DNA from: a virus | DNA length: 64,000 bases | Virus record (IMG/VR): IMGVR_UViG_3300028610_000987 | Coordinates: 1 to 64,000 of that record | Reading direction: 5' to 3' (one strand) | Part shown: piece after piece, positions 1,919 through 38,697 of the stretch | How the letters are laid out: the number at the start of each line of letters is the position of its first letter | How positions within the stretch are numbered: position 1 is the stretch's first letter | The notes under the pieces: generated by a model | The model's input: only the letters and a program-made list of their open reading frames with translations | The model's database searches: none | Told to the model about the DNA's origin: nothing | Translations under genes and position numbers: made by a program

Positions 1919-2473
1919 TTACACCGCTATGTCTTCGCCATTGAATCTTGTGATTACACCAACCTCTCCGTCATACAAACAACACTCAACTCCAGCCTCG
2001 TTCATCATCTCCCATGCATTAACGATAGACTCTACCCAAGTGGTATGGCTACCAGCCAAGGCCATCAATTGAGCATGTCCCACTACCTTGATAATACCAG
2101 CCTGAATGATCGCCTTGGCACACTCAGAACATGCATAGAATGGGCAATACAGGGTTGTCTCCCTAGTCGCATTGCCGTTCCTGGCCGCATTGAAGATAGC
2201 ACCGTTCTCGGCATGAACAACCATTCTGTATTTGGTGGTCTTGTCTGTCAGGCGACTCTGGGTCTCTGCGACTCCGTCAGGAAACTTATTCACACCATAA
2301 GACAAGATTCCATGGTGGCAACTGACAAGAACCGAACCGTTTTTTGTGCTCGGATCAGGGCTTACAGAGTTCGCGTGTTCGTATGCCTTCTGTAGCATCT
2401 GTCGATGCAAATAATCATTTGTCACGGTAAACGGGTGCTTTAGCCACGCTAGTTCGTCTCTAACACTAATCAT
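1919..2473 (-). CDS. deoxycytidylate (dCMP) deaminase-like zinc enzyme
   Basis: 184 residues from the ATG that follows GGAGG. Zinc and catalytic residues of the cytidine/dCMP deaminase family are present: HAE (residues 87-89) and the PFYACSEC motif with two cysteines (115 and 118). The enzyme would convert dCMP to dUMP, the substrate of the ThyX encoded at 17 kb. The ATG overlaps the RecA stop by 8 bases. Substrate (dCMP rather than another pyrimidine) is family inference. Confidence 0.85.
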   Translation of the reverse strand: MISVRDELAWLKHPFTVTNDYLHRQMLQKAYEHANSVSPDPSTKNGSVLVSCHHGILSYGVNKFPDGVAETQSRLTDKTTKYRMVVHAENGAIFNAARNGNATRETTLYCPFYACSECAKAIIQAGIIKVVGHAQLMALAGSHTTWVESIVNAWEMMNEAGVECCLYDGEVGVITRFNGEDIAV

Positions 2474-3527
2474 CTTTTTTTTCCTCCGGAAGCACAATGC
2501 CTCTAACTTCCCTTTCGAGTTTTTCCAATTTGTCGGGGTTTTCTTTTAGAAAATTCGACAATCTAGCCAGACCCTGAAACTTAGGCGGGTTTTTCTTTTT
2601 CTCTGCGAACATTGGTATAGAATACCATGCACCGGCTTTCTCAATGAGTCCCAAGTTCTCCGCAGTATTTACGATGTCCCTAATTCTGTCGATACCTATG
2701 CCGTATCTCAGAGGTAATACGCAAGGCAATAGTGGTCGTCCCATTGCGGAGGATTGAACAGTTATGTGCATATCATGTCCATCGGGAGCGTTGGTTTCTG
2801 TATTGCGATCCCATTGCTGGGTCCACGCAACCTTTAGCCAAACAGAACATGCATATTGGATGGCTATGCCGCCTTTTTCTGTCCACTTCGGACCACGAGG
2901 CTCGCGGTTCGTCATCATTTGAGATATGAAAATCAGAATAACATCCTGGGCATCAACTATTTGTTGTGCGCGTCTGAAAAATGCAGACAACAATTTCGCA
3001 GGGCCAGCCATGTCTTTGTTGCTACCAATGTCTTCTTCTTGTTCTGTCATAGTAGAAAGTGCAGCGATGCTATCTACCACTACGACGGCCCTGTTCTGCG
3101 TCTTGGCAATTCTCTCGATGATATTCAGATAGTCTTCTGCTGTTAAAGCCTTCTCTACTTTATGAGGGACAACCTGTAGCTTAGAAGGATCAAGTCCTTG
3201 GATAGTTTCCAGAAGCGCAGGAGTACATCTTTTCTCGATATTGACGTAGAACGTCGGTCTATTTTCTATCTGGGCATTCCTGAGTATTTCCAAACATAAT
3301 GTTGTCTTGCCACTCTTTGGCTTTCCAGTAATCAGACAAATCGTTCCGTCAGGTATTCCACCGCTTAATGCTATGTCCAAAGAAAGAGGTGTGTGTAGCA
3401 ACTCTCTAGATTGCGGAGGCAAAGCCTTGTCTGCCGTAGCAATAATGCCTTCGCCATGTATTCTGGTTAAAAAAGCATCCAAACTTTCGTTTTCAATCTT
3501 AGGTTTTCTTTTAACCATTTTCAGCAT
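2466..3527 (-). CDS. recA: RecA-family recombinase
   Basis: 353 residues. Walker A GKPKSGKTT (68-76), a Walker B VVVVDSIAAL strand and the following MTEQEEDIG and FISQM segments are those of RecA. It would polymerise on single-stranded DNA for recombination and replication restart. A second in-frame ATG three codons in (3518) has a GAG at better spacing, so the start could be there. Neighbours are deaminase, nuclease-like and helicase genes of the replication module. Confidence 0.92.
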   Translation of the reverse strand: MLKMVKRKPKIENESLDAFLTRIHGEGIIATADKALPPQSRELLHTPLSLDIALSGGIPDGTICLITGKPKSGKTTLCLEILRNAQIENRPTFYVNIEKRCTPALLETIQGLDPSKLQVVPHKVEKALTAEDYLNIIERIAKTQNRAVVVVDSIAALSTMTEQEEDIGSNKDMAGPAKLLSAFFRRAQQIVDAQDVILIFISQMMTNREPRGPKWTEKGGIAIQYACSVWLKVAWTQQWDRNTETNAPDGHDMHITVQSSAMGRPLLPCVLPLRYGIGIDRIRDIVNTAENLGLIEKAGAWYSIPMFAEKKKNPPKFQGLARLSNFLKENPDKLEKLEREVRGIVLPEEKKDD

Positions 3528-9989: not shown

Positions 9990-11774
9990 CTAACTACCAC
10001 CTTTCGTAGTATCGCACACTCCACTTGGGCAATCATTCACTGCCGCCTCTTCCGCCATTTGTTCCAAATATTCATTAGCTTCGGACAAGGGCAGTGGAAT
10101 CAAAGGTGATTCGCCCTTACTCCCATCCTGGTACACCGTGATTCCCTTCAATTCGCCTATGTACTTCCTCATATCTCTCGACAACTGTTCGAAAGTATAG
10201 CCTTTCGGCAAATTGATTGTCTTAGAAATAGAATTATCTATATGCTTTTGACAAACCGCTTGCATAGCAAGATGTGCTTCTGGTGAAATGTCATGAGCAC
10301 CCTGAAAATGTTTTATAGACTTGCGTTTTGCCAAAAAGCTTTTCAACAATGGATGAACAACAACCTCCATGCTGCCAGTTTTAGAAACCTTATCATGAAT
10401 ATCTTTGTGTTCATTGAATCGTCTCTGATAAACAGGTTGAAACAACGGCTCTATACCAGAAGAACAACCAGCCACAATAGAAATTGTACCCGTTGGGGCA
10501 ATCGTCAATAGGGCACAATTGCGAACACCATGTTCTTTGATCAGTCTATGAAGTCTTCTTGTTAAGCATCTGCGAGCAAATCCAGTCTTGGTATGCTGAT
10601 CAACATCAAATGCATGGAACGACCCCTTCTTAATAGCGAGAGATATGCTTGCGTGATAAGCCTGCTTTTTCACAAAATCCATCACCTTGTCGACAACGTT
10701 TCTAGCTGCTTGGCTAGAATATTTCAGATTAAGTTCCAACAGCATGTCATGAAGTCCCATGACTCCCAAACCTATTCTACGAAACTTTTGACACGTCTCT
10801 TGGATTATGGGCATGGGATAATTGTTCTGGTCGAGTACGTTATCCAAAAACCTGACGCTCATCGCGACTGTTTCTTCGAGCAAATCCCAATCAATCTCTC
10901 CGTCTATTACGTGCGTATGGAGATTCACTGCCCCAAGACAACAACAGTCGTATGGTGGCATCCAAATTTCACCACAGGGGTTAGTACTAACCAGTTCATG
11001 CCGATAGGATATCGTATTCATGACGTTCGCAAAACCTATGTTCAACAATCCAGGGTCTCCATTCTTGAGGGCATTCTTAACGATTTTGTCCCAAATATCC
11101 TGAGCGGCTATTTTACCTCGTTCTTCACCTTGCCACTTGAAAACCACATCTTCTCCGTCGTCTAGTAGCTTCAAAAAGACATCATCTATCAGTACGGATA
11201 TGTTGGCATTACTGAGTTCGTTGTTGTCTAGTTTCGCTTCTAAGAATTCCATCAAATCCGGGTGATCATATTTGAGACAAAACATGAGAGCCGATCTTCT
11301 GCCGCCGCCTTCTCTAAGTTCATTACAGACAGAGTTGATTGCTCGCATGAGACTAACCGCGCCGGTAGCCTCACCCCCCGTACCACGGATAAGAGAACCT
11401 CTTGGACGTACTTTTGAAAAGTTGATTCCGACTCCACCACCAGTACCAGAGATAATTGTAACTGCTCTGAGTGCATCTCCCCACCCCTCTCTAGAGTCTA
11501 AATCGTCTGTCCATACGAAACAATTCAACATCTGTCCCCTTCTGCGTCCTGCCCCTCTCCATATCCTTCCGCCAGGAGAAAAACGATTTGTCTGTAGGAT
11601 ATCTAGAAACCTAGCGCAATATTCATCTCTCTTGGTTCCCATTTCTGCGTCAGATATCGTCCTAGCAACTCGTTCGCACGCCTGTGTAAACGTTTCTTCA
11701 GCGTGAATAGCGTACCTATCACGAAAAATCTTCAGCGCAAATCCATGCGGTTCGTACTTCTGAACAACACTCAC
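9990..11774 (-). CDS. nrdJ: class II (adenosylcobalamin-dependent) ribonucleotide reductase
   Basis: 594 residues. Active-site residues: LNCFV (C85), NPCGE (C267 and E269), CCLGAVNL, APTGTIS, and a C-terminal CPSGVC redox pair. No radical-carrying R2 subunit is encoded nearby and the size fits B12-dependent NrdJ, so the enzyme would make deoxynucleotides without oxygen dependence, using host cobalamin. GTG start overlaps the HD-protein stop (GTGA) with GGGGG nine bases upstream. Confidence 0.92.
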   Translation of the reverse strand: MSVVQKYEPHGFALKIFRDRYAIHAEETFTQACERVARTISDAEMGTKRDEYCARFLDILQTNRFSPGGRIWRGAGRRRGQMLNCFVWTDDLDSREGWGDALRAVTIISGTGGGVGINFSKVRPRGSLIRGTGGEATGAVSLMRAINSVCNELREGGGRRSALMFCLKYDHPDLMEFLEAKLDNNELSNANISVLIDDVFLKLLDDGEDVVFKWQGEERGKIAAQDIWDKIVKNALKNGDPGLLNIGFANVMNTISYRHELVSTNPCGEIWMPPYDCCCLGAVNLHTHVIDGEIDWDLLEETVAMSVRFLDNVLDQNNYPMPIIQETCQKFRRIGLGVMGLHDMLLELNLKYSSQAARNVVDKVMDFVKKQAYHASISLAIKKGSFHAFDVDQHTKTGFARRCLTRRLHRLIKEHGVRNCALLTIAPTGTISIVAGCSSGIEPLFQPVYQRRFNEHKDIHDKVSKTGSMEVVVHPLLKSFLAKRKSIKHFQGAHDISPEAHLAMQAVCQKHIDNSISKTINLPKGYTFEQLSRDMRKYIGELKGITVYQDGSKGESPLIPLPLSEANEYLEQMAEEAAVNDCPSGVCDTTKGGS

Positions 11775-23740: not shown

Positions 23741-24751
23741 CTACGATCCCCTTGGTAAGGTTTCCTCTATCGACAAAGGACTAACGAGTACGTAGTCCAC
23801 ATTCTCACGTAAGTCAACAAAATTCATCGCACCACCCATGGCGAGACCAGACTTGATTCCCATAACGTAGTCCTCAATGACCTTTTCTGTCCTGCCTTTG
23901 TCCTCCATCTCTATCTCGATACCTTCTGGTGCTATATCCGGCCTACCAGAAGCCGCACGGCTACTCATGCCTCGATAGAGACGTTTATCCCCAATCCTTG
24001 GGGTTGCTCGTGTACCAGCCAACATGTATCCGATCATACACGCATCAGCGCCAGCCCATATTGATTTTACCATGTCTCCACTGGTTCGCAATCCTCCGTC
24101 TGCAATAATTGAAACTCCATATTGGCCACTTACTACTTTGCATGTTTCTTGTATTGCAGAAAATTGTGGGACGCCGAATCCTGTGACTATTCGTGTGGTG
24201 CAAGCAGCGCCTGGGCCGATACCAACCTTGATCGCATCGACTCCGTGTTGGGCGAATTTGATTGCTGCTTCGGGAGTGCAGACATTACCAGCCATGAGTG
24301 TGAACGGATATTTCTCTCTCACCCTAGATAGAGAATCGATAGTTTCGTACATTTTTACGTGGTCGCCGTGTGCCACGTCGATACAGATGACGTTGCAGCC
24401 AATATCTGCCAGCATCTTTACTTTGTAAGGTATTTCTCCTTTCAACCCTATTGCGCATCCAACGTTTTTGGCACCCTGGTCACGAGCCCATTTGATTTCT
24501 TTCATTTGGGTGTCTAGTTCTGTACGGTCGTCCAGGTTGATATGTCGGGTCAGGATACCTAGACCGCCCATCTTATCCATGACTACCAACATGTATTTTC
24601 CTGTAATAGAATCCATAGCCGCAGAGATGAGTGGTATTTTTAGCTCCACTGATCCTATCTTGGTTGCAGTACTTGGTGAAGTTCTAGACCCAAGGGTTGA
24701 GTAGTGCGGGACAAGCAAGATATCATTGAAACACAGTTTGCGCTCTTTCAC
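23741..24751 (-). CDS. IMP dehydrogenase / GMP reductase family enzyme
   Basis: 336 residues, no CBS domains. The catalytic loop GIGPGAACTTR (with the Cys that forms the covalent purine intermediate), IADGGLRTSGD and YRGMSS are present. Length fits GMP reductase, which returns GMP to IMP, rather than full IMP dehydrogenase, but residues seen cannot separate the two. It would shift the purine pool during phage replication. Confidence 0.85.
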   Translation of the reverse strand: MKERKLCFNDILLVPHYSTLGSRTSPSTATKIGSVELKIPLISAAMDSITGKYMLVVMDKMGGLGILTRHINLDDRTELDTQMKEIKWARDQGAKNVGCAIGLKGEIPYKVKMLADIGCNVICIDVAHGDHVKMYETIDSLSRVREKYPFTLMAGNVCTPEAAIKFAQHGVDAIKVGIGPGAACTTRIVTGFGVPQFSAIQETCKVVSGQYGVSIIADGGLRTSGDMVKSIWAGADACMIGYMLAGTRATPRIGDKRLYRGMSSRAASGRPDIAPEGIEIEMEDKGRTEKVIEDYVMGIKSGLAMGGAMNFVDLRENVDYVLVSPLSIEETLPRGS

Positions 24752-25788: not shown

Positions 25789-25976
25789 TAAGATTCCTCC
25801 TTTATTACAAACTGGAACCTCATTCCATTACCAGTGTCGAATTCGTCAGGTAAACCATTTTCCAATTGTTCCTGGAGATTTTGAATCAACTTACCTGCCT
25901 CTTTCTTGCTCATGAAGACTTTTGTCAACGGTGTGAAGATGGTTTTTATGCCGTTCTGGAATATTTCTACTTTCAT
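25788..25976 (-). CDS. hypothetical small protein
   Basis: 62 residues, MKVEIFQNGIKTIFTP start, helical middle; ATG overlaps the stop of the Cys/Asp-rich gene. Not recognised. Confidence 0.65.
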   Translation of the reverse strand: MKVEIFQNGIKTIFTPLTKVFMSKKEAGKLIQNLQEQLENGLPDEFDTGNGMRFQFVIKEES

Positions 25977-26950
25977 CGACTACACGCTTTTAACCATCTT
26001 GCACGAGCGAATGCATTCATAGGACGAAAAGTCTGATAGACATTTTCGTCGTCAAATTCATCGGTATCGATATCAGGATCGCCCATACATCCACCACTCG
26101 TAGCGAGGCAATCACAGTCGGTGCATATTTCCTGACATTGGGTACAGTAGCCATCTTCGTCCCAGCATCCACATGTGGTCGAGTCCATACCGCATCGAAG
26201 ACAGTCGTCGTCGTCGAGATCATCATCTTCGTTGCAGATACAGCAACTGTTTTTCTCGCAACATGTCAAACAATTATCATAGATATCTTCGTCGTCGTCG
26301 TCGTCGTCGCAAACACAGTCAAAGCCATGACAATTCTCGCACATGTTTTCACATGTACAGTTTCCGTACAGATTGCAACACCCGTCACAATATGTATTTT
26401 CTGTGTCTTCACCTATGATTCTGACTGCCGCCAATTCTACAATAAAACGAGGAACGTCTAGTTGCGGGAATTCTGATGGATGTCTTTTAAGAGCAGCCTG
26501 AGCACCACCTTCTATTCTGTTATCTAGGCATGTGAATAGTTTGTCGTCTAGTTCTATTTCGTTATGGTTAGTCCTGTATCCTAGACAATACGCCCTGCCA
26601 CTGTGATAGCAACCTCCAAGTTTGACCTTAGACGTATCTACTTCGATACTCAGACATAATGCGGCCATGTTTTCTTTTGTTGCTGGTACTACATCGTCAA
26701 TGGTTAGTTTACAGAATTCGCCACCGAGGAAGAATAGTTCTTTTCCAGGTTTTGGAGCGGCGCTTACAACTCGACCTTTTGGAAGGATATAGTCGTACAT
26801 GAATGTACCATTTGATTGATGTTCCCAATACACGAATTTTGTTGTTGACTTATCGCGGCCAGTGACAAAACAAACATGTTCTTCCCACTTTTTGCTCTTG
26901 TCGTCTGAATCAAATCTAGCGATAGCTAGTTCACAATTCTTTGCATTCAT
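25973..26950 (-). CDS. Cys/Asp-rich multi-zinc protein
   Basis: 325 residues. An N-terminal folded part (1-175) is followed by about 100 residues with more than 25 cysteines in CxxC pairs interrupted by Asp tracts (DDDDDDE; DDDLDDDD), then a short basic helix. It probably binds several zinc ions as a protein-interaction surface. The same style of tail is seen on the E2-like protein at 36934-38271. Sits between DUF3150-like and DUF1257-like genes. Confidence 0.75.
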   Translation of the reverse strand: MNAKNCELAIARFDSDDKSKKWEEHVCFVTGRDKSTTKFVYWEHQSNGTFMYDYILPKGRVVSAAPKPGKELFFLGGEFCKLTIDDVVPATKENMAALCLSIEVDTSKVKLGGCYHSGRAYCLGYRTNHNEIELDDKLFTCLDNRIEGGAQAALKRHPSEFPQLDVPRFIVELAAVRIIGEDTENTYCDGCCNLYGNCTCENMCENCHGFDCVCDDDDDDEDIYDNCLTCCEKNSCCICNEDDDLDDDDCLRCGMDSTTCGCWDEDGYCTQCQEICTDCDCLATSGGCMGDPDIDTDEFDDENVYQTFRPMNAFARARWLKACSR

Positions 26951-26962
26951 TTCATTTTTCTC

Positions 26963-27973
26963 CTAGAGAATTACTCTACGTTTCAGTTCGCCAATAAATT
27001 TCGATCCGCTTTCACCTTCTGCCGCAGCTTTGCTCCTGATTGCCTCTAAGGCATCGGATACACTATTCTTAACCGTAGCAGACTCAAAGTCTTGTGGACG
27101 GATACCTTCGTCAAGGAATGTGTTTCTGAAGTCAGACAGCATCTTTTCGATATCTTCGTCCTCGAATATGTTCATGGAACGGAATCTGTCGACATACTTT
27201 CGGAAACATGAGATAGATTTTGGAGTCAACTGCTTGCTTTCTTCTTCGTCTCCGAATGGTTGTCCGTTGATTCTGGCAGTCATTAACTCACAGAATCGAA
27301 CGGTTTCGTCTCTCATGGACGTTACGTAGTCTCCGACAAATTCTCCAACGGCGTCTCTCATCTGAATACGTAGTTCTGTTTCTCTTTCTGTCTGCACCTT
27401 TTGCTTGGCAACCACCTCTTCGACGCTGGTTTCTTCTATAGACCCAAGACCTGCTATCTGGAATGTGTACCAATCAAACTTGAAATGTTCTCTCAGGGCT
27501 TTCGGATTGCGGGGATAGTGACCTTTCAAACACTTATCCCAAAAATCTGGGTGTGCCGATTTGACAGCTTGTGTCAGGTCGTCGAACCGCAAGATGAAGC
27601 TGTCGACCCTCTTGAAGAATTCTTCTTTTAGTTCTTCTATTTCCTGCTCTACGCTCAGCAACATGGTGGATGGAACAAAGTGTGCGTTTGCTATCCCGAA
27701 CGGCACACTCCATCGTTCGAGCGCCTTACGAGCACGTTGTTCAATCTGGGTCAGAGCCTGAAGTTCCGTCTTTGGAACCATCAATTTCCTTCCTAGATTG
27801 ACAATTTCTTTGGGGAGTGCATCCGGATCATATCCGACACGGACAAGATCGGCGCGGGTCAACATTTTCCTTCCGCTCCACATTTTTATACTCAGGTTGA
27901 CTAGACAACCAACGTCGAAAAGATTGATAGTGTCTTTATCAACCTTTGGTTGGTCTTTGGTCACTGTAGCCAT
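26963..27973 (-). CDS. DUF3150-like protein
   Basis: 336 residues. VNLSIKMWSGRKMLTRADL at 30-50, PKEIVNLGRKLMVPK, and the helical RARKALERWSVPFG segment fit DUF3150, a family usually encoded next to MoxR-type or other AAA ATPases in phages and plasmids. Here it directly follows the Ycf46-like ATPase by 18 bases, so it is a likely partner or substrate adaptor of it. Confidence 0.65.
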   Translation of the reverse strand: MATVTKDQPKVDKDTINLFDVGCLVNLSIKMWSGRKMLTRADLVRVGYDPDALPKEIVNLGRKLMVPKTELQALTQIEQRARKALERWSVPFGIANAHFVPSTMLLSVEQEIEELKEEFFKRVDSFILRFDDLTQAVKSAHPDFWDKCLKGHYPRNPKALREHFKFDWYTFQIAGLGSIEETSVEEVVAKQKVQTERETELRIQMRDAVGEFVGDYVTSMRDETVRFCELMTARINGQPFGDEEESKQLTPKSISCFRKYVDRFRSMNIFEDEDIEKMLSDFRNTFLDEGIRPQDFESATVKNSVSDALEAIRSKAAAEGESGSKFIGELKRRVIL

Positions 27974-27991: not shown

Positions 27992-29548
27992 TTAGCTTAA
28001 TACGACCTTCCGTTTGTTTGCTTGCGAATTCTCTTCCGAACACGGATTGGCGGGTTTGGCATGTAGCTTGCACCATTCCCTGATAATCTCGATACGTTGT
28101 GCCTCTGTTTTGGATAGAGGAACAATCTCTGAAGTAGCTTGAGCTATGTGTTTTCCTGCTAACTCAACATTGTTCGCGAATGACATTTTGAGTGCGAGTT
28201 TGATGATTTGTTCGATATCTGCTCCCGTATATCCATCGGTAAGTTTGGCGACTTTGGTGATGTCGTAATTTTCGGGTTTTCTGTCCCTCCGAGATAGATG
28301 GATACGAAAGATTTCTTCTCGTTCATCAATTCTCGGAACATCTAACCCAAATATCTCATCGAATCTACCTTTGCGACAGAATTCGGGTGGCAAGGATTGT
28401 ACTTGATTGGCGGTGGCGACAACGTAGACAGGAGAATTCCTATCGCTTAGCCATTTGAGGAACGTTCCGAATAACCGTTTAGACGATCCACCGTCATGAT
28501 CTCCAGAGCCGCCGAAACCTTTTTCAACCTCGTCGAGTTGCAAGACGCAAGGAGCTATGCCTTCCATCATCTTAATGGCTTCTCTCATGTTCTTTTCTGA
28601 CTCACCAACGAATTTGTTCATAAGATTGCCAACGTCCATGGCAATAAGGGGAAGTCCTAGTTCGGATGCAATCGCTACAGACAGTAGTGTTTTTCCGCAC
28701 CCAGGTATTCCGACCAATAAAATTCCTCGTGGGAATTCTATTCCGTAATCTCTTGCTTTTTGTGTGAAGCACGGTTTGTCTAGAGAGATGTGTTGTTTTA
28801 GCGCGTCGTATCCTCCGACATTATCCATACCACCTTCTGGGGGTTCTATATATGTCAATAATTCTGATGCACGAATAATCCCAGCTTTTTCGTCGACTAT
28901 CGTTTGAACCGCATCTAAGTTCAAGTCTTTATGTTTACGGAGAGCTAGTGCCACGCGGTCGGTTGTTTGTTGTGATGTCATACCCCTACAGGCATCTACC
29001 ACTTGTGGAACGATATCTTCGTCGAGTTCGAAGTCTGAACCATCGGATTTCTCAACACCATCACACACAAACTCAATGCGTTCTTTGATTTGATCGCCAT
29101 CCGGTAAATCAAACTCAATTCGTGTTATATCGTGCAGTAGTGGCTTCGGTGTGTCAAAGTCTGGTCCGACGAAGACGATTGTTTGGTTAACTGACGATAC
29201 GATTTTCCGTAGTTGATCCAACCAGCTTATCACAACATCATAAGTTGGATAAGTTTCGTGTTTCAGGTATCCGCCAAAGTCGTTAAGGATAAGGATTATG
29301 TCGTTGGGGAATTTCATGATTGCTTCAAGGTGTTTTTCGACCGATGCTTCAGGCTTCAAGTCGCAAACAGATACTTGATTTTTATCAACCCATCCCTGCG
29401 CAATTGTCCAGATGTAAATTTGTCGGTCTATGTTTTGCGCAACTTCTTCGATGGAAGCTATAGCCCTGTCTTTTTCGAATGTATCTACTCGTAGCAGTGC
29501 ATGGCCAGAGCAGATGTAATTGCTAATTGCCTCATTGAAATTTTGCAT
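27992..29548 (-). CDS. Ycf46-like AAA+ ATPase
   Basis: 518 residues. N-terminal domain (1-235) with HALLRVDTFEKDRAIASIEE and RQIYIWTIAQGW like Ycf46; AAA module with Walker A GIPGCGKT (280-287), Walker B CVLQLDE (334-340), sensor VVATANQ and arginine finger region CRKGRFDEIF (391-400). Predicted protein remodelling ring. ATG at 29548 chosen for AGGAG six bases upstream; an in-frame start 41 codons earlier would overlap the previous gene. Confidence 0.85.
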   Translation of the reverse strand: MQNFNEAISNYICSGHALLRVDTFEKDRAIASIEEVAQNIDRQIYIWTIAQGWVDKNQVSVCDLKPEASVEKHLEAIMKFPNDIILILNDFGGYLKHETYPTYDVVISWLDQLRKIVSSVNQTIVFVGPDFDTPKPLLHDITRIEFDLPDGDQIKERIEFVCDGVEKSDGSDFELDEDIVPQVVDACRGMTSQQTTDRVALALRKHKDLNLDAVQTIVDEKAGIIRASELLTYIEPPEGGMDNVGGYDALKQHISLDKPCFTQKARDYGIEFPRGILLVGIPGCGKTLLSVAIASELGLPLIAMDVGNLMNKFVGESEKNMREAIKMMEGIAPCVLQLDEVEKGFGGSGDHDGGSSKRLFGTFLKWLSDRNSPVYVVATANQVQSLPPEFCRKGRFDEIFGLDVPRIDEREEIFRIHLSRRDRKPENYDITKVAKLTDGYTGADIEQIIKLALKMSFANNVELAGKHIAQATSEIVPLSKTEAQRIEIIREWCKLHAKPANPCSEENSQANKRKVVLS

Positions 29549-29549
29549 C

Positions 29550-29813
29550 TTAACTCCTTTTTTTGTTGAGGGATTCCATTTTTTCGACGGTAGTAGCCAA
29601 GTTGTCCACAATGTGTCGAGGGACCATGACGAAAGCTGTAGGAATAGAAGGATTGTAATCTTCGACACCAAGCAAAGAATGAGCTATGGCAAGAAGCTTT
29701 TCTCGTTCTCTCCATATACAACTTGGGCATCTCCAACCTTCTCCATACATATAAAGTCCACATACAACTGTACAAGTATCGCACTTGATGTTTTTGACTT
29801 CATCAGGATGCAT
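29550..29813 (-). CDS. zinc-finger protein, unknown
   Basis: 87 residues; CDTCTVVCG and CPSCIW form a zinc ribbon, followed by a helical tail. AAGGA is six bases before the ATG. Immediately upstream of the Ycf46-like gene. Confidence 0.7.
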   Translation of the reverse strand: MHPDEVKNIKCDTCTVVCGLYMYGEGWRCPSCIWREREKLLAIAHSLLGVEDYNPSIPTAFVMVPRHIVDNLATTVEKMESLNKKRS

Positions 29814-35075: not shown

Positions 35076-35735
35076 TTACTTTGCCCCCATCTCATTTGTG
35101 AGCAGATTCAAATCGATATCTTTGTCGACCGGATACCCACGAAGCCATTGGGCGAATTGTGACACCATGATTCCTGCTGCGACATTGGAACAGTAGATAG
35201 TCGACTTGGCCGTACATGGGCCTTGGTACGCTTCTGACGAGGGGAACAGTGTAGTGGAATAGTGTTCGCGAGATGCATCGTCGTGAACAGTCAGGACTCT
35301 GAGATACTCTGCACTCATCCTACCATCGACGAAAAAGTCTGCCCTTTCGATGATTGAATTGAAGATTTGCTTTCGAGTCTCTATTCCATCGACACAGCAG
35401 AAAAACGCACCGACTGTAAACTGCAATGACCTAAACTTTCGATTTGCAGTATACACCTCGATGTCTGGGTTGATAGCTCGACATACGTCGGCCACGGCTT
35501 CGACCTTGGGTGTACCAATGTCTGCCGGATAGAAGCCCTGTGGGGCAAGATTTTCCACCTCCACGGTGTCGAAATCTATGAGTTGAATACTCGGAGCGCC
35601 GATAGCTGCAAGCTGCAATGCTACTTGACGACCAATAGCGCCAACACCCACCACCGTAGCTGGCATCTCCAACAGCTTATCTGGCGGAACCAATTCCCTT
35701 TGTCTCACATCTCTGTCTGCAAGATCATTCGTCAT
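35076..35735 (-). CDS. ThiF/E1-like adenylyltransferase
   Basis: 219 residues. Rossmann loop GVGAIG (30-35), acidic pair DFDTVEVENL (54-63), Lys77, CVDGIETRK (114-122) and PCTAKSTIY with Cys174 correspond to the ATP, metal and possible thiol sites of ThiF/MoeB/E1 proteins. It would adenylate the C-terminus of the ubiquitin-like protein encoded at 38406. Part of the Ubl - E2 - JAMM - X - E1 operon. Confidence 0.88.
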   Translation of the reverse strand: MTNDLADRDVRQRELVPPDKLLEMPATVVGVGAIGRQVALQLAAIGAPSIQLIDFDTVEVENLAPQGFYPADIGTPKVEAVADVCRAINPDIEVYTANRKFRSLQFTVGAFFCCVDGIETRKQIFNSIIERADFFVDGRMSAEYLRVLTVHDDASREHYSTTLFPSSEAYQGPCTAKSTIYCSNVAAGIMVSQFAQWLRGYPVDKDIDLNLLTNEMGAK

Positions 35736-35937
35736 TGTTATCCCCTTTCTCGTCTGTCACCTCTACTTCAACGTAATCCCCGAAGTTCCTTTTTGCTATT
35801 AGGAAGTTATCGTCTGGCCATTGGCGGACAATGATCATATCCCCATCTTTGGCGAACTGACCTGCTTCCACCATTTCCCCGTCTTCTGCTGGACGAATTT
35901 TCAATAAGTCTGTCTTTTGCACCCACTTCTTCGCCAT
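35725..35937 (-). CDS. small protein between JAMM and E1 genes
   Basis: 70 residues from an ATG that shares bases with the JAMM stop (TAATG). Beta-rich (DMIIVRQWPDDNFLIAKRN) with an acidic end (TDEKGDNNDE). Its fixed position suggests a conserved component of the system; not itself a clear ubiquitin fold. Confidence 0.65.
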   Translation of the reverse strand: MAKKWVQKTDLLKIRPAEDGEMVEAGQFAKDGDMIIVRQWPDDNFLIAKRNFGDYVEVEVTDEKGDNNDE

Positions 35938-36917
35938 TATGCTGTCGCCTTTCTCCACTCAGGGCGACAATACGCATTCTTTTTTGCCCAATACCTGATC
36001 TTTTTGTCAAGTCCTTCTTTGTCTGGAGAAGCACAAGGCTGGAAGTCATCTTCACTTTCTAGTTGCCATGTGTCGTTGTCCGGATTGTAATAGTATGAAC
36101 AATCTTCTCCCTTGTTGGCGATAAAGCATACCACATCACCATCTAAATCCCAGTAACAATCCATCTCGTCGATCATCTCGTTGAACTCTAGCTTCTGCTT
36201 TTCTTCTGGCGTGACAGAAATCCATGCAGAATCGTAGTCATCCCACCACTGAGAGCTATTGCCCGACCCAGTTTGACGGGTAGCTCCCAATTCTTCTTCG
36301 AAAATGTCGAGAAGAGGGGCATCCGGAATAAGACGCTTTCTTTTTCCTTCTGCGCCAGTCATATGGAAGCTCGTCTTCTTGGAGACCTTTGCTTTGTACT
36401 CATTTTCCCATTCTGTAGGATTTGAGCCGTTGAACGGAACTCCATATTCTATTACCACATCTAATAGACTAATAGTGCCCGGCCCTGTGTTCATCTTCAG
36501 GCGACAGTACGCGCTGCCATCTTGGCCAATGATCAACATGATCGCCCAGTTAGGATGAGAAAACGCTTTTTCGAAGTTTTTCTCATCGACGAAAGATGGG
36601 TCTGTAGAATTCCCTGGATGGGTGTGTGCAAGAATGTTCATACATTGCCATGGTGCGAGACCTTCGTCCATCATGCGCTCTACGTATTCTGCGCTATCGT
36701 CTGAATCAAGATCGAATGTGACTATGGTACATTCTTGTTTGATCAAGACGAAGTCTGTGATCAACAGGGGGTCAGATGTTTCTGTGACACAATATCCAGC
36801 GACTTCTGTGTTGCCCTTGTCCCTCATCCAGATAAGTTTTGCCCAGGCATATGGCGTCAACTTCAGTTGCTTGCCAAACGTAAGTCGCGGTTTGCAAAAT
36901 TCCTGTTCTTTTCCCAC
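35937..36917 (-). CDS. JAMM/MPN metalloprotease-like protein
   Basis: 326 residues. Glu38 and the exact JAMM motif HTHP-x6-SFVD (His98, His100, Ser108, Asp111) form a zinc isopeptidase site like those of Rpn11 and archaeal/bacterial deubiquitinases. A C-terminal extension (200-326) is Trp/Tyr/Asp-rich and unknown. GTG start, AAAGG seven bases before. It would remove or mature ubiquitin-like tags. Confidence 0.9.
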   Translation of the reverse strand: MGKEQEFCKPRLTFGKQLKLTPYAWAKLIWMRDKGNTEVAGYCVTETSDPLLITDFVLIKQECTIVTFDLDSDDSAEYVERMMDEGLAPWQCMNILAHTHPGNSTDPSFVDEKNFEKAFSHPNWAIMLIIGQDGSAYCRLKMNTGPGTISLLDVVIEYGVPFNGSNPTEWENEYKAKVSKKTSFHMTGAEGKRKRLIPDAPLLDIFEEELGATRQTGSGNSSQWWDDYDSAWISVTPEEKQKLEFNEMIDEMDCYWDLDGDVVCFIANKGEDCSYYYNPDNDTWQLESEDDFQPCASPDKEGLDKKIRYWAKKNAYCRPEWRKATA

Positions 36918-36933: not shown

Positions 36934-38271
36934 TTAGTTGTTTACTTCTGCCAGCAAACAGTTGTGCTCTTCTTTGCATGACGAACACATAGACACACCA
37001 CAATGATCACACGAGTTATCGATACAGTTTGAACACATTTCTTTGTCACATGATGGACAGTGCTTCAGGCACAAACTACAAGCATGTTCTCCACATTCTT
37101 CACATATTGTGAGACAATTATCACAATGTGAGTCTCCACAATGGCAACATTCCCCGAGGCACTCATGACACACTTCGTCGTCACACTCACAAGACGTAGA
37201 GCATTCTTGACAAGAACGATTACTGCATTGAGCACATTCTTTTGTGCACTTTTTGCAATAGGAGTTTTGGCAACAACTACAAGATACGGTACATGATTTA
37301 CACATTGACTCACCACAGCCGTTACATCCATTCATACACTCATCACAATGCCACTCATCGCAACTGCTGCATTCGTCGATGGTGCCACAATCTCGACATC
37401 GACTGACTCCACACCCAGAACAATAGTAGATGATTTCGTCTGAATACCATTCTTCACATATGTCGCAAAGTGATTGACCATCTCTGTCTGGATCGTACCA
37501 GTCGTTAAGTGGCTCATAAGGAGAATCCTCGTTGTATGTGCGGACGATTGCTTCGACTATCCGAAAGTAATCTTCAAGCCTTCCTTGTCTTAGGGCGAGT
37601 TGCATTATGTCGCCGCCATCACCCTCGCAGAGTTGACCATCTTTTACATGAGGATGACAGTATCCACTATTTCCTTCTATTGGACAGACAGCCTCTACGA
37701 GAAGCCCATAAATCAGACGATCGTCGTCCTGAACCCCTTTGCCCATAGGATCGTCAAGGTTGACACGCAAGATGAAATCGCCAAGGTCTACTGCTTCAGT
37801 GCCGTCGTCGAGAGACACATTGCCAATGTTTACGGATAAAACCCCCTCTCGGTATGTGACTTTATCCCATGCATCATTGATAATAGTCAGTTCCTGAATT
37901 GCTTCCTTGACTCCGAGTGGTTCACAAACTTCGTCGCTCACCATAGATTCCATTAAGGCTGTGCATTTGTCCAGGGCGACTACCATGGTGTTTCTTAGGT
38001 CTGGAATCATTTCGTTGGCTATGTCGGCATACACCTTTGGGTTCGGAGTACCAATATGCCTTGCGGTCATTGCCCCTACTTCGACCTGAACACGAGGTGT
38101 CATCCCCGCCATGAAACGCTTGGTCCATTTCCCAAAAATCCTTGACCTTACTTCGAGCCATTCTGTGTAGTTTGCTATCCTTTCTCGATATTCAGATATT
38201 GGCTCAAGAGCATTTTTGTGCATCCAATTGCGGTAATGATTGGCGGCACGAACTACAAGTTTATCCTTCAT
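36934..38271 (-). CDS. E2-like conjugating domain fused to a Cys-rich (RING-like) tail
   Basis: 445 residues. Residues about 110-255 contain CHPHV-KDGQLCEGD (His206, Cys215) followed by YNEDSPYEPLNDW, the HPH...C layout of bacterial E2-like proteins. From about 268 to the end there are over 50 cysteines in CxxC pairs, a set of zinc knuckles that may work like RING domains. Thus conjugating and ligase-like parts appear joined. The N-terminal 110 residues are basic and helical. Assignment is by motif and operon context, not structure. Confidence 0.7.
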   Translation of the reverse strand: MKDKLVVRAANHYRNWMHKNALEPISEYRERIANYTEWLEVRSRIFGKWTKRFMAGMTPRVQVEVGAMTARHIGTPNPKVYADIANEMIPDLRNTMVVALDKCTALMESMVSDEVCEPLGVKEAIQELTIINDAWDKVTYREGVLSVNIGNVSLDDGTEAVDLGDFILRVNLDDPMGKGVQDDDRLIYGLLVEAVCPIEGNSGYCHPHVKDGQLCEGDGGDIMQLALRQGRLEDYFRIVEAIVRTYNEDSPYEPLNDWYDPDRDGQSLCDICEEWYSDEIIYYCSGCGVSRCRDCGTIDECSSCDEWHCDECMNGCNGCGESMCKSCTVSCSCCQNSYCKKCTKECAQCSNRSCQECSTSCECDDEVCHECLGECCHCGDSHCDNCLTICEECGEHACSLCLKHCPSCDKEMCSNCIDNSCDHCGVSMCSSCKEEHNCLLAEVNN

Positions 38272-38405: not shown

Positions 38406-38636
38406 TTAGGCTCCGTCAACCTTCACAGGTGCAAGACTTACACGATCACCTTCGCAGAGAACGTAATCCCGGTGTGCCTCGACCGAGGTTCCATTCGCTC
38501 GTATACGAATCGTGAACTCATCCGGGTCACCATCGAAGGCAATCTCCAGGAACTTCTCCAGGGTCGTACCTTCTACGACTGGAGTCTTGACTGGTAGCCC
38601 AGCGCCCCCATTATGAACCAAAGTCACGTTAATCAT
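38406..38636 (-). CDS. ubiquitin-like (ThiS/MoaD-type) beta-grasp protein
   Basis: 76 residues, beta-grasp pattern: MINVTLVHNGG strand, TTLEKFLEIAF helix, EFTIRIRANG strand, then LCEGDRVSLAPVKVDGA as in MoaD/ThiS C-termini. The tail ends Gly-Ala rather than Gly-Gly. Start ATG at 38636 is six bases after GGAG; another ATG is one codon before. With E1, E2-like and JAMM genes downstream it is the likely modifier. Confidence 0.8.
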   Translation of the reverse strand: MINVTLVHNGGAGLPVKTPVVEGTTLEKFLEIAFDGDPDEFTIRIRANGTSVEAHRDYVLCEGDRVSLAPVKVDGA

Positions 38637-38697
38637 CATGATCTCCCTAAAAATTGGACTATTGTCCATTCCTCAAATCGGGACAGATGAACACCAT

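Follow-up and report, generated by a model that had tools for sequence, protein, structure and literature searches.

Does a virus encode an E2 enzyme of its own, and what would such an enzyme do with a long series of cysteine knuckles at its C-terminus? The question is raised by a gene at positions 36,934–38,271 of the window, the 64,000-nucleotide stretch of DNA analysed here, which is part of a virus record of 119,625 bases. A sequence-only reading of this locus had proposed that the gene fuses an E2-like domain to a cysteine-rich tail; if this tail acted like RING fingers, transfer and ligase functions would sit on one chain. The gene model it gave is correct (minus strand, ATG start, 445 aa), and the HPHV...C215 motif is as it described: H206-P207-H208-V209...C215. 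Since the frame is kept in relatives at no more than 44% identity, we regard the gene as a genuine coding feature.

In direct searches the protein matched no PHROGs, NCBIfam, PADLOC or Pfam family, no PDB sequence and no GenBank phage; the sole viral contig matched, L002, carries a copy at 100% protein identity. The distant member L020, used as the query, likewise returned nothing from the phage or plasmid collections. The family was reached through a degenerate HPHVxxxGxLCxG pattern and through an E1 profile, and none of its 22 members tested matched the E2 families of Pfam or NCBIfam at E ≤ 0.01. The features discussed below are collected in Table 1.

Table 1. Features of the conjugation locus and its candidate partners in the window
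Feature	Position	Strand	Remarks
E2 fused to Cys-knuckle tail	36934..38271	-	445 aa, ATG start
N-terminal helical region of E2 protein	37939..38265	-	approximately residues 3-111; helices 3-22, 26-56, 78-111
E2/UBC core, residues 113-264	37480..37935	-	predicted active-site motif HPHVKDGQLCEG, Cys215
Zinc-knuckle tail, residues 269-438	36958..37467	-	45 Cys, 20 CxxC; first module C-x2-C-x11-C-x2-C-x4-C-x2-C
Ubl (beta-grasp, ThiS-like)	38406..38669	-	87 aa, C-terminus ...KVDGA, one residue past conserved Gly86
JAB/MPN metallopeptidase	35937..36917	-	326 aa, E38 + HTHP..S..D ligands
70-aa ORF	35725..35937	-	overlaps JAB stop (TAATG) and E1 start
ThiF/MoeB-type E1	35076..35735	-	219 aa, GxGxxG, conserved C174 (GPCTAKSTI)
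Classical AAA ATPase	27992..29671	-	~5.4 kb downstream of cassette; candidate partner
DUF3150-family gene	26963..27973	-	adjoins AAA gene; homologue in chromosomal module; candidate partner

The fold on which the E2 proposal hinged, an E2 or UEV fold at residues 110–255, is present in the predicted structure. Folded alone, with an alignment of 25 of the 28 computed cores (L045, L052 and L012 omitted), residues 113–264 gave a pLDDT of 90.7 and a pTM of 0.85, with elements in the order helix, strands, active-site loop, helices. A model of the full-length protein, built on an alignment of 22 E2s from which the long or tail-less L040, L041, L044, L045, L052 and L012 were omitted, combined long N-terminal helices, a compact domain at approximately 121–260 and a regular series of small beta-knuckles (mean pLDDT 85.7); since its pTM is 0.49, this model does not fix the arrangement of the tail relative to the E2. 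With the core as the query, none of Foldseek's PDB matches reached E ≤ 0.001, and the 50 matches listed included no E2. VIA-align, a re-alignment of Foldseek's candidates, covered 996 chains, with Z ≥ 5 in 122 and Z ≥ 8 in none, and the 50 matches listed all came from entries that hold an E2 (Z 7.0–6.2, 103–123 residues aligned). UBE2S headed these (Z 7.0 over 121 residues, 4.2 Å), and Ubc13, UBE2K, UBE2D, UBE2E and other E2s were among the rest. At the sequence level, a profile search of the PDB found no significant E2 match (3we5, E 1.3), and a fold search with the whole protein gave no information on the E2, its VIA rows lying mostly over the long N-terminal helices.

The catalytic residues are strictly conserved: H206, P207, C215 and G217 are invariant in all 25 aligned relatives, and the same H, P, C and G are kept in each of the tail-less proteins L045, L052 and L012, which lie outside that alignment. 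As in E2s, the cysteine is found downstream of an HPx motif, here with His at the third position, where eukaryotic E2s have the Asn of HPN. In some relatives, e.g. L043 (HPHISPDGHIC), the motif has a spacing that we take to be canonical by comparison with eukaryotic HPN. The invariance of C215 argues for an E2 rather than a UEV. Once the core had been folded alone, the identification rested on VIA-align, the motif and the gene context, and on these combined grounds of modelled fold, motif and neighbourhood we are confident in assigning the window protein as a predicted E2.

The gene context consists of adjoining Ubl, JAB and E1 genes, on which the sequence-only reading was silent. We surveyed the cassette with HMMs in 31 rows, comprising 29 virus or MAG loci together with L012 and L030; L030 equals L029 over the stretch compared and L026 copies the window's cassette with one terminal Ubl residue changed. 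The E1 was found in all 31 rows, the JAB in 30, the E2 in 28 and the Ubl in 26, and the order Ubl>E2>JAB>E1 was seen in 25 of the 31, with no other order. The loci L033, L038, L039 and L025 end at contig edges, and the E2 of L049, missed by the HMM, was found by eye. BLAST clustering of the neighbours in 29 loci gave the same four families as the most frequent (E2 27, JAB 27, E1 26, Ubl 18), the next being an AAA ATPase (10). The gene thus belongs to a conserved cassette of Ubl, E2-zinc tail, JAB isopeptidase and ThiF/E1.

The Ubl is recognised by Pfam only as ThiS, and weakly (E 0.13). Its Gly86 is present in seven of eight aligned Ubls, the exception being the second Ubl of L023, which ends differently. 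In a wider set of 34 (the window, 25 loci and eight chromosomal copies), 23 have the motif [KR]-[VIM]-[DE]-G, which lies 1–10 residues from the end in 21, as expected of a JAB substrate. The other 11 are without the common Gly motif, and in the Ubl of L047 the last 36 residues include no Gly; those of L032 and L081 carry longer extensions, and those of L049 and L052 end in Gly. Two further observations concern copy number: the second Ubl of L023 (941–1189) lacks a terminal Gly, and L040 encodes a 221-aa Ubl-like protein (1417–2082) with two K-V-E-G motifs, 78 and 5 residues from the end, which is possibly a tandem di-Ubl.

The JAB protein has the metal site of an isopeptidase, with E38, H98, H100, S108 and D111 invariant in nine of nine and the H-x-H...S-x-x-D pattern in 30 of 30 proteins. 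Its best PDB profile match is RPN11 (E 0.0017) and its best NCBIfam match is the Cap3 model (E 0.0014). The E1 matches Pfam ThiF (E 3e-25), and its profile matches MoeB/ThiF in the PDB at 1e-16, together with UBA5, UBA7, UBA1 and BubCD (5e-11). C174, the putative catalytic cysteine, is invariant in nine of nine E1s, and a loose C[TGS]A pattern occurs in 28 of 31; the small 219-aa protein shows no sign of a separate E2-presenting domain.

An E1 closest to ThiF/MoeB and a Ubl whose sole Pfam hint is ThiS could also indicate a sulfur-carrier or cofactor pathway of the ThiS/MoaD type in place of protein conjugation. Such a pathway could use a Ubl, an E1 and a JAB, though not an E2. The cassette holds an E2 fold with an invariant Cys and a JAB with an RPN11-like profile, its conserved order puts the E2 between Ubl and JAB, and among the window proteins scanned, a subset of the ORFs, there was no thiamine or molybdopterin biosynthesis gene beyond the ThiF-like E1. 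We therefore consider a sulfur-carrier pathway very unlikely, and a phage-borne Ubl-conjugation system, with the E2-tail protein as its E2, to be the probable function of the cassette.

What, then, is the tail? It is indeed rich in cysteine, as had been noted from the sequence, although the figure of over 50 in the tail was too high: the whole protein has 50, of which 45 lie within residues 269–445. The estimate of about ten CxxC knuckles, conversely, was too low, since 40 of these 45 cysteines form 20 non-overlapping CxxC motifs, or roughly ten two-knuckle units. Very high cysteine content could mark a metal-storage, redox or low-complexity region with no defined fold, and Cys-rich profile matches can be compositional. 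The tail is, however, regular: gaps are mostly 3 or 4 residues, the period is 15, and 27 Cys pairs occur at lag 15 against 10.5 expected, while 10,000 shuffles of the tail gave a mean of 8.2 and a maximum of 15 CxxC against the 20 observed. The full-length model gives regular beta-knuckles along residues 301–410 with block pLDDT of 90–92, and distant relatives have the x11/x4 ligand spacing in common. On these grounds an undefined fold is highly improbable.

After the core, 22 of the 26 E2-tail proteins examined fit the pattern C-x2-C-x(n)-C-x2-C-x(m)-[CH]-x(2-4)-C, with n = 11 in 16 and m = 4 in 20 of the 22; the fifth ligand is a Cys in 19 proteins and a His in three, one of which, L042, is probably mis-parsed. 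The tails of L040, L041, L044 and L050 do not fit. From 16 of the 26 tails we built a profile of the first ~80 residues, which gave eight PDB matches at E ≤ 0.01 (E 0.0011–0.0094), to which composition may contribute: WDFY3, Midline-1 (two), TRAF3, ARHGEF2, KMT2D (two) and KMT2C. By their molecule names we take these to be FYVE, RING/B-box, C1 and PHD fingers, all of the treble-clef class. The top rows of the whole-protein Foldseek search likewise include PHD and LIM fingers (E 0.12–2). The first module thus looks like a treble clef of RING/PHD/FYVE type, and to this extent the suggestion of RING-like fingers is partly supported. RING fingers have the ligand order C3HC4, with spacings x1-3 and x2-3. 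In 20 of the 22 fitted proteins ligands 4 and 5 are four residues apart (x4), which does not agree with this; we take the spacing to be PHD-like and not that of a classical RING.

Nor is a tail present in every relative. Among the 28 rows with an HMM-found E2, the CxxC count is 0 in L045, L052 and L012 and 3 to 21 in the others. As tail-less forms occur, among them crAss-type ones, the tail is not needed in every system. A trans-acting E3 that would serve these tail-less E2s was considered and found unsupported: no ORF with at least three CxxC occurs in L045 or L012, and L052 has one with five CxxC ~4.4 kb from its E1. The tail region also varies in other ways. L046 (3848–6017) has two different E2-zinc-tail genes in tandem within one cassette, and in L029/L030 (4374–5745) the E2 gene is split into two frames inside the tail, identically in contigs of different samples, by a frameshift that is either programmed or mutational.

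These features bear on whether the tail is a ligase module or a scaffold that binds substrate, nucleic acid or a partner (e.g. by docking the E1, the AAA ATPase or the protein to be tagged) while the E2 alone carries out transfer. A length that ranges from none to 21 CxxC is what one would expect of a binding array, the tail-less systems keep the E2 motif, and the spacing comes closest to that of PHD fingers, which like LIM fingers mainly serve in binding. The block also stands beside DNA replication and repair genes in L040/L041/L044, a Xanthomonas phage and two Crassvirales records, which makes DNA or replisome binding conceivable. On the other hand, the profile matches of the tail include fingers of ubiquitin ligases (Midline-1, TRAF3), and the tail is joined to the E2 in 25 of the 28 rows with an HMM-found E2. 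A pure scaffold is, in our view, a serious possibility that falls short of being probable; for an E3-like role of the tail in cis, we judge the chances to be about even.

The replication and repair neighbours just mentioned are an annotated primase, topoisomerase and ligase, a UDG, a weak DnaB match (E 8e-4) and an SNF2-type helicase. The window itself contains genes for IMP dehydrogenase/GMP reductase, the ribonucleotide reductase large subunit and RecA/UvsX (23741–24751, 9990–11774 and 2466–3527, minus strand), as well as four tRNA genes.

Other phages carry parallel blocks. A crAss-like block (L007 and L008, Crassvirales; L009, bajarodcaudo virus 1) has the window's order of Ubl-like, E2-position, metalloprotease-position and ThiF genes, and its E2-position gene contains Y-[LM]-HSHV...C-[LT]-G-x-GPI; in L007 and L008 the annotation of the JAB-position gene is metalloprotease, and L009 has a homologue of it. 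This block differs from the window's in having no Cys tail and an E1 only 27–32% identical, and phmmer matched neither its E2-position nor its JAB-position proteins to the window's E2-tail or JAB protein. Xanthomonas and Erwinia phages of ~228 kb encode an 892-aa protein with HPHM...GSLCLG followed by a Cys-rich end of its own, which adjoins ThiF in the one record read (L006:3247-5925, Xanthomonas phage PhiXhv-12). It matched neither the window E2-tail protein nor the E2 HMM, so that the likeness is at the level of the motif; the PhiXhv-12 protein is perhaps an independent combination of E2 and Cys tail.

The cassette is also found on chromosomes. The E2 profile was run against 294 genomes from the phylum of the Gemmataceae MAG G002: 12 match at 1e-10, and in nine of these the match lies below 1e-59. 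Of 12 loci read there, nine hold the full cassette, one in each of those nine genomes; the E2 match of L080 contains one in-frame stop. A single 8.3-Mb contig (C1) of G243 has six E2-zinc-tail matches. In the phylum of the Shapirobacteria MAG two of 192 genomes match, and in that of the Heimdallarchaeota MAG two of 195 match at 1e-10, one of them G001 itself. The Heimdallarchaeota locus, L023 (CP070695.1), matches the 63–103 kb half of the virus record at 60–93 kb and the cassette side at 150–171 kb, and is a relative of the window's virus, either a provirus or a mis-binned virus. In the E1 tree, many of whose deeper forks are open with bootstrap not settled, the window falls in a ten-row clade of nine viral rows and L023 (support 100/99), and 11 of 12 chromosomal rows form a separate clade with L037 (98/82). 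We set aside an archaeal origin as unsupported, since the L023 stretch resembles the window's virus and is nested in a mostly viral E1 clade, and only two of 195 genomes of that phylum match.

Two of the chromosomal copies have a phage integrase nearby, recognised by Pfam in one case and by a BLAST cluster in the other; one copy adjoins an IS110 transposase, and another a Mokosh-type helicase (MkoA, E 5e-105). These neighbours, and the patchy distribution in the G002 phylum, are what might be seen of a system for anti-phage or inter-virus defence, comparable to BIL or CBASS conjugation and common to phages and planctomycete-like hosts. Against this, the cassettes are mostly in viral contigs here (in part through the choice of collection), several phage groups have them next to replication genes, the E1 tree separates the window's clade from the chromosomal one, and PADLOC has no model that fits the E2. 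A defence role therefore seems to us possible but rather unlikely.

Ten chromosomal regions of 18 kb were read, six from G243 and four from four other genomes. In nine of them, among which are all those of G243, an AAA ATPase and a second conserved gene lie directly upstream of the cassette on the same strand; L095 has the AAA split into two ORFs, and L097 lacks both the AAA and its partner. Intact chromosomal AAA genes are homologous to that of the window at E 2e-49 or better, and the second gene matches the window's DUF3150 gene more weakly (E 2e-9 to 1e-5 in eight). Since the upstream pair is homologous to the window's own AAA/DUF3150 pair, the arrangement suggests a functional set of six genes. 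In the phage, where the pair lies ~5 kb downstream of the E1 and is not adjacent to it, the link would follow by analogy. PADLOC places the window AAA nearest IetA (6.6e-28), perhaps through generic AAA likeness. We regard the coupling of the AAA to Ubl-tagged proteins as doubtful.

Other genes near these AAA pairs deserve mention. In the window, a 325-aa protein with a Cys- and Asp-rich tail (33 Cys; 25973–26950, minus strand) adjoins the DUF3150 and AAA genes, and by eye it has a likely relative, apparently without the tail, in L005 (6370–6792). In six of the ten chromosomal regions a conserved gene of ~260 aa ('VVEGTHDIKFL', L089:4299-5084), which has no Pfam match, lies upstream of the AAA; by eye its product is perhaps TOPRIM-like.

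How does the cassette relate to known conjugation systems? In Caldiarchaeum subterraneum, a Ub-E1-E2-srfp(RING) operon is found with Rpn11, which trims pro-ubiquitin, and the RING protein completes the cascade (PMC5654768). This cluster, which brings together an extended Ubl cut by an Rpn11-type JAB, an E1, an E2 with a catalytic Cys and a zinc-finger ligase component (PMC5654768), is like the set predicted here. However, the archaeon encodes its small RING protein separately, its Ub has a Gly-Gly end and its Rpn11 gene is oriented the opposite way (PMC5654768), whereas the system found here is viral and bacterial, with its zinc module fused to the E2 and, in the window, a single Gly before the last Ubl residue. 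The BilABCD/Bub systems have the same four-gene set of Ubl, E2, JAB and E1 (PMC11354881), and the window E1 profile matches Citrobacter BubCD at E 5e-11. They differ, however, in the CEHH motif of BilB and in BilD, a pseudodimeric E1 that includes a Cys domain (PMC11354881), while the window has an E2 with HPH...C and a zinc tail and an E1 of 219 aa, neither of BilB or BilD type. Against the PADLOC BilD model the window E1 reaches only E 5.8e-5, and a chromosomal E1 reaches 7.9e-8. By the features compared, the cassette is not a BIL member.

The operon groups of Iyer et al. 2006 (e.g. group 6d) similarly unite a Ubl, a JAB, an E1-like and an E2-like protein (PMC1779556). Group 6d differs in that its E2 is without the conserved His and its operon includes a helical protein, and no phage member with a Cys-rich E2 tail was found in the accessible part of that paper (PMC1779556). 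Type II CBASS also relies on E1 and E2 chemistry with a JAB isopeptidase, Cap2 and Cap3, but in Cap2 the E2 and E1 domains are on one protein, which conjugates the C-terminus of the cyclase itself (PMC11153139). The window has separate E1 and E2 genes, a free Ubl and no cyclase; the four cassette proteins scanned gave no CD-NTase match. Our literature search found no description of the window's cassette, though there may be one in Burroughs 2011 or Chambers et al., and no paper that joins crAss-like phages, ubiquitin and ThiF, or Caudoviricetes phages with ubiquitin enzymes.

We propose the following cascade for the putative Ubl-conjugation system. The JAB protease would trim the Ubl precursor, cleaving ...KVDGA between its Gly and Ala, to expose a C-terminal Gly. 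The small ThiF-type E1 would then adenylate the Ubl and hold it as a thioester on C174, from which it would pass to C215 of the E2 core. The C-terminal treble-clef/zinc-knuckle array would act in cis, replacing a separate E3, by binding the substrate and/or keeping the E2~Ubl reactive. The Ubl would finally be placed on a target protein, from which the JAB could take it off again. In planctomycetes, and perhaps also in the window's phage clade, the AAA ATPase would act on the tagged proteins. As a speculative extension, viruses and planctomycetes might share a tagging-and-extraction machine that parallels ubiquitin-Cdc48: a single-chain E2-E3 (a UBC core with an expandable treble-clef array) would put a one-Gly Ubl on targets, possibly replication or repair complexes, the RPN11-like JAB would reverse this, and a dedicated classical AAA ATPase with its DUF3150-like partner would extract or remodel the tagged proteins.

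A bacterial virus thus appears to carry its own ubiquitin-style tagging kit, whose transfer enzyme is extended by a long chain of zinc-binding fingers, and relatives of these four genes are present in further viruses and planctomycete bacteria. The complete Ubl conjugation cassettes known from bacteria and archaea are for the most part cellular or defence systems. What is distinctive here is the range of phages that carry them, the zinc-finger module on the E2 instead of a separate E3, and the AAA-linked relatives on chromosomes. Our best reading is that an E2 and a zinc-finger module on one chain constitute a variant of the prokaryotic E1/E2/JAB systems that is new here. The small, expressible four-gene sets would lend themselves to testing the E2-E3 fusion, the relation of tail length to output, and viral tagging of the virus's own or host proteins. 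They may also bear on how E2, E3, JAB and segregase modules were assembled before eukaryotes.
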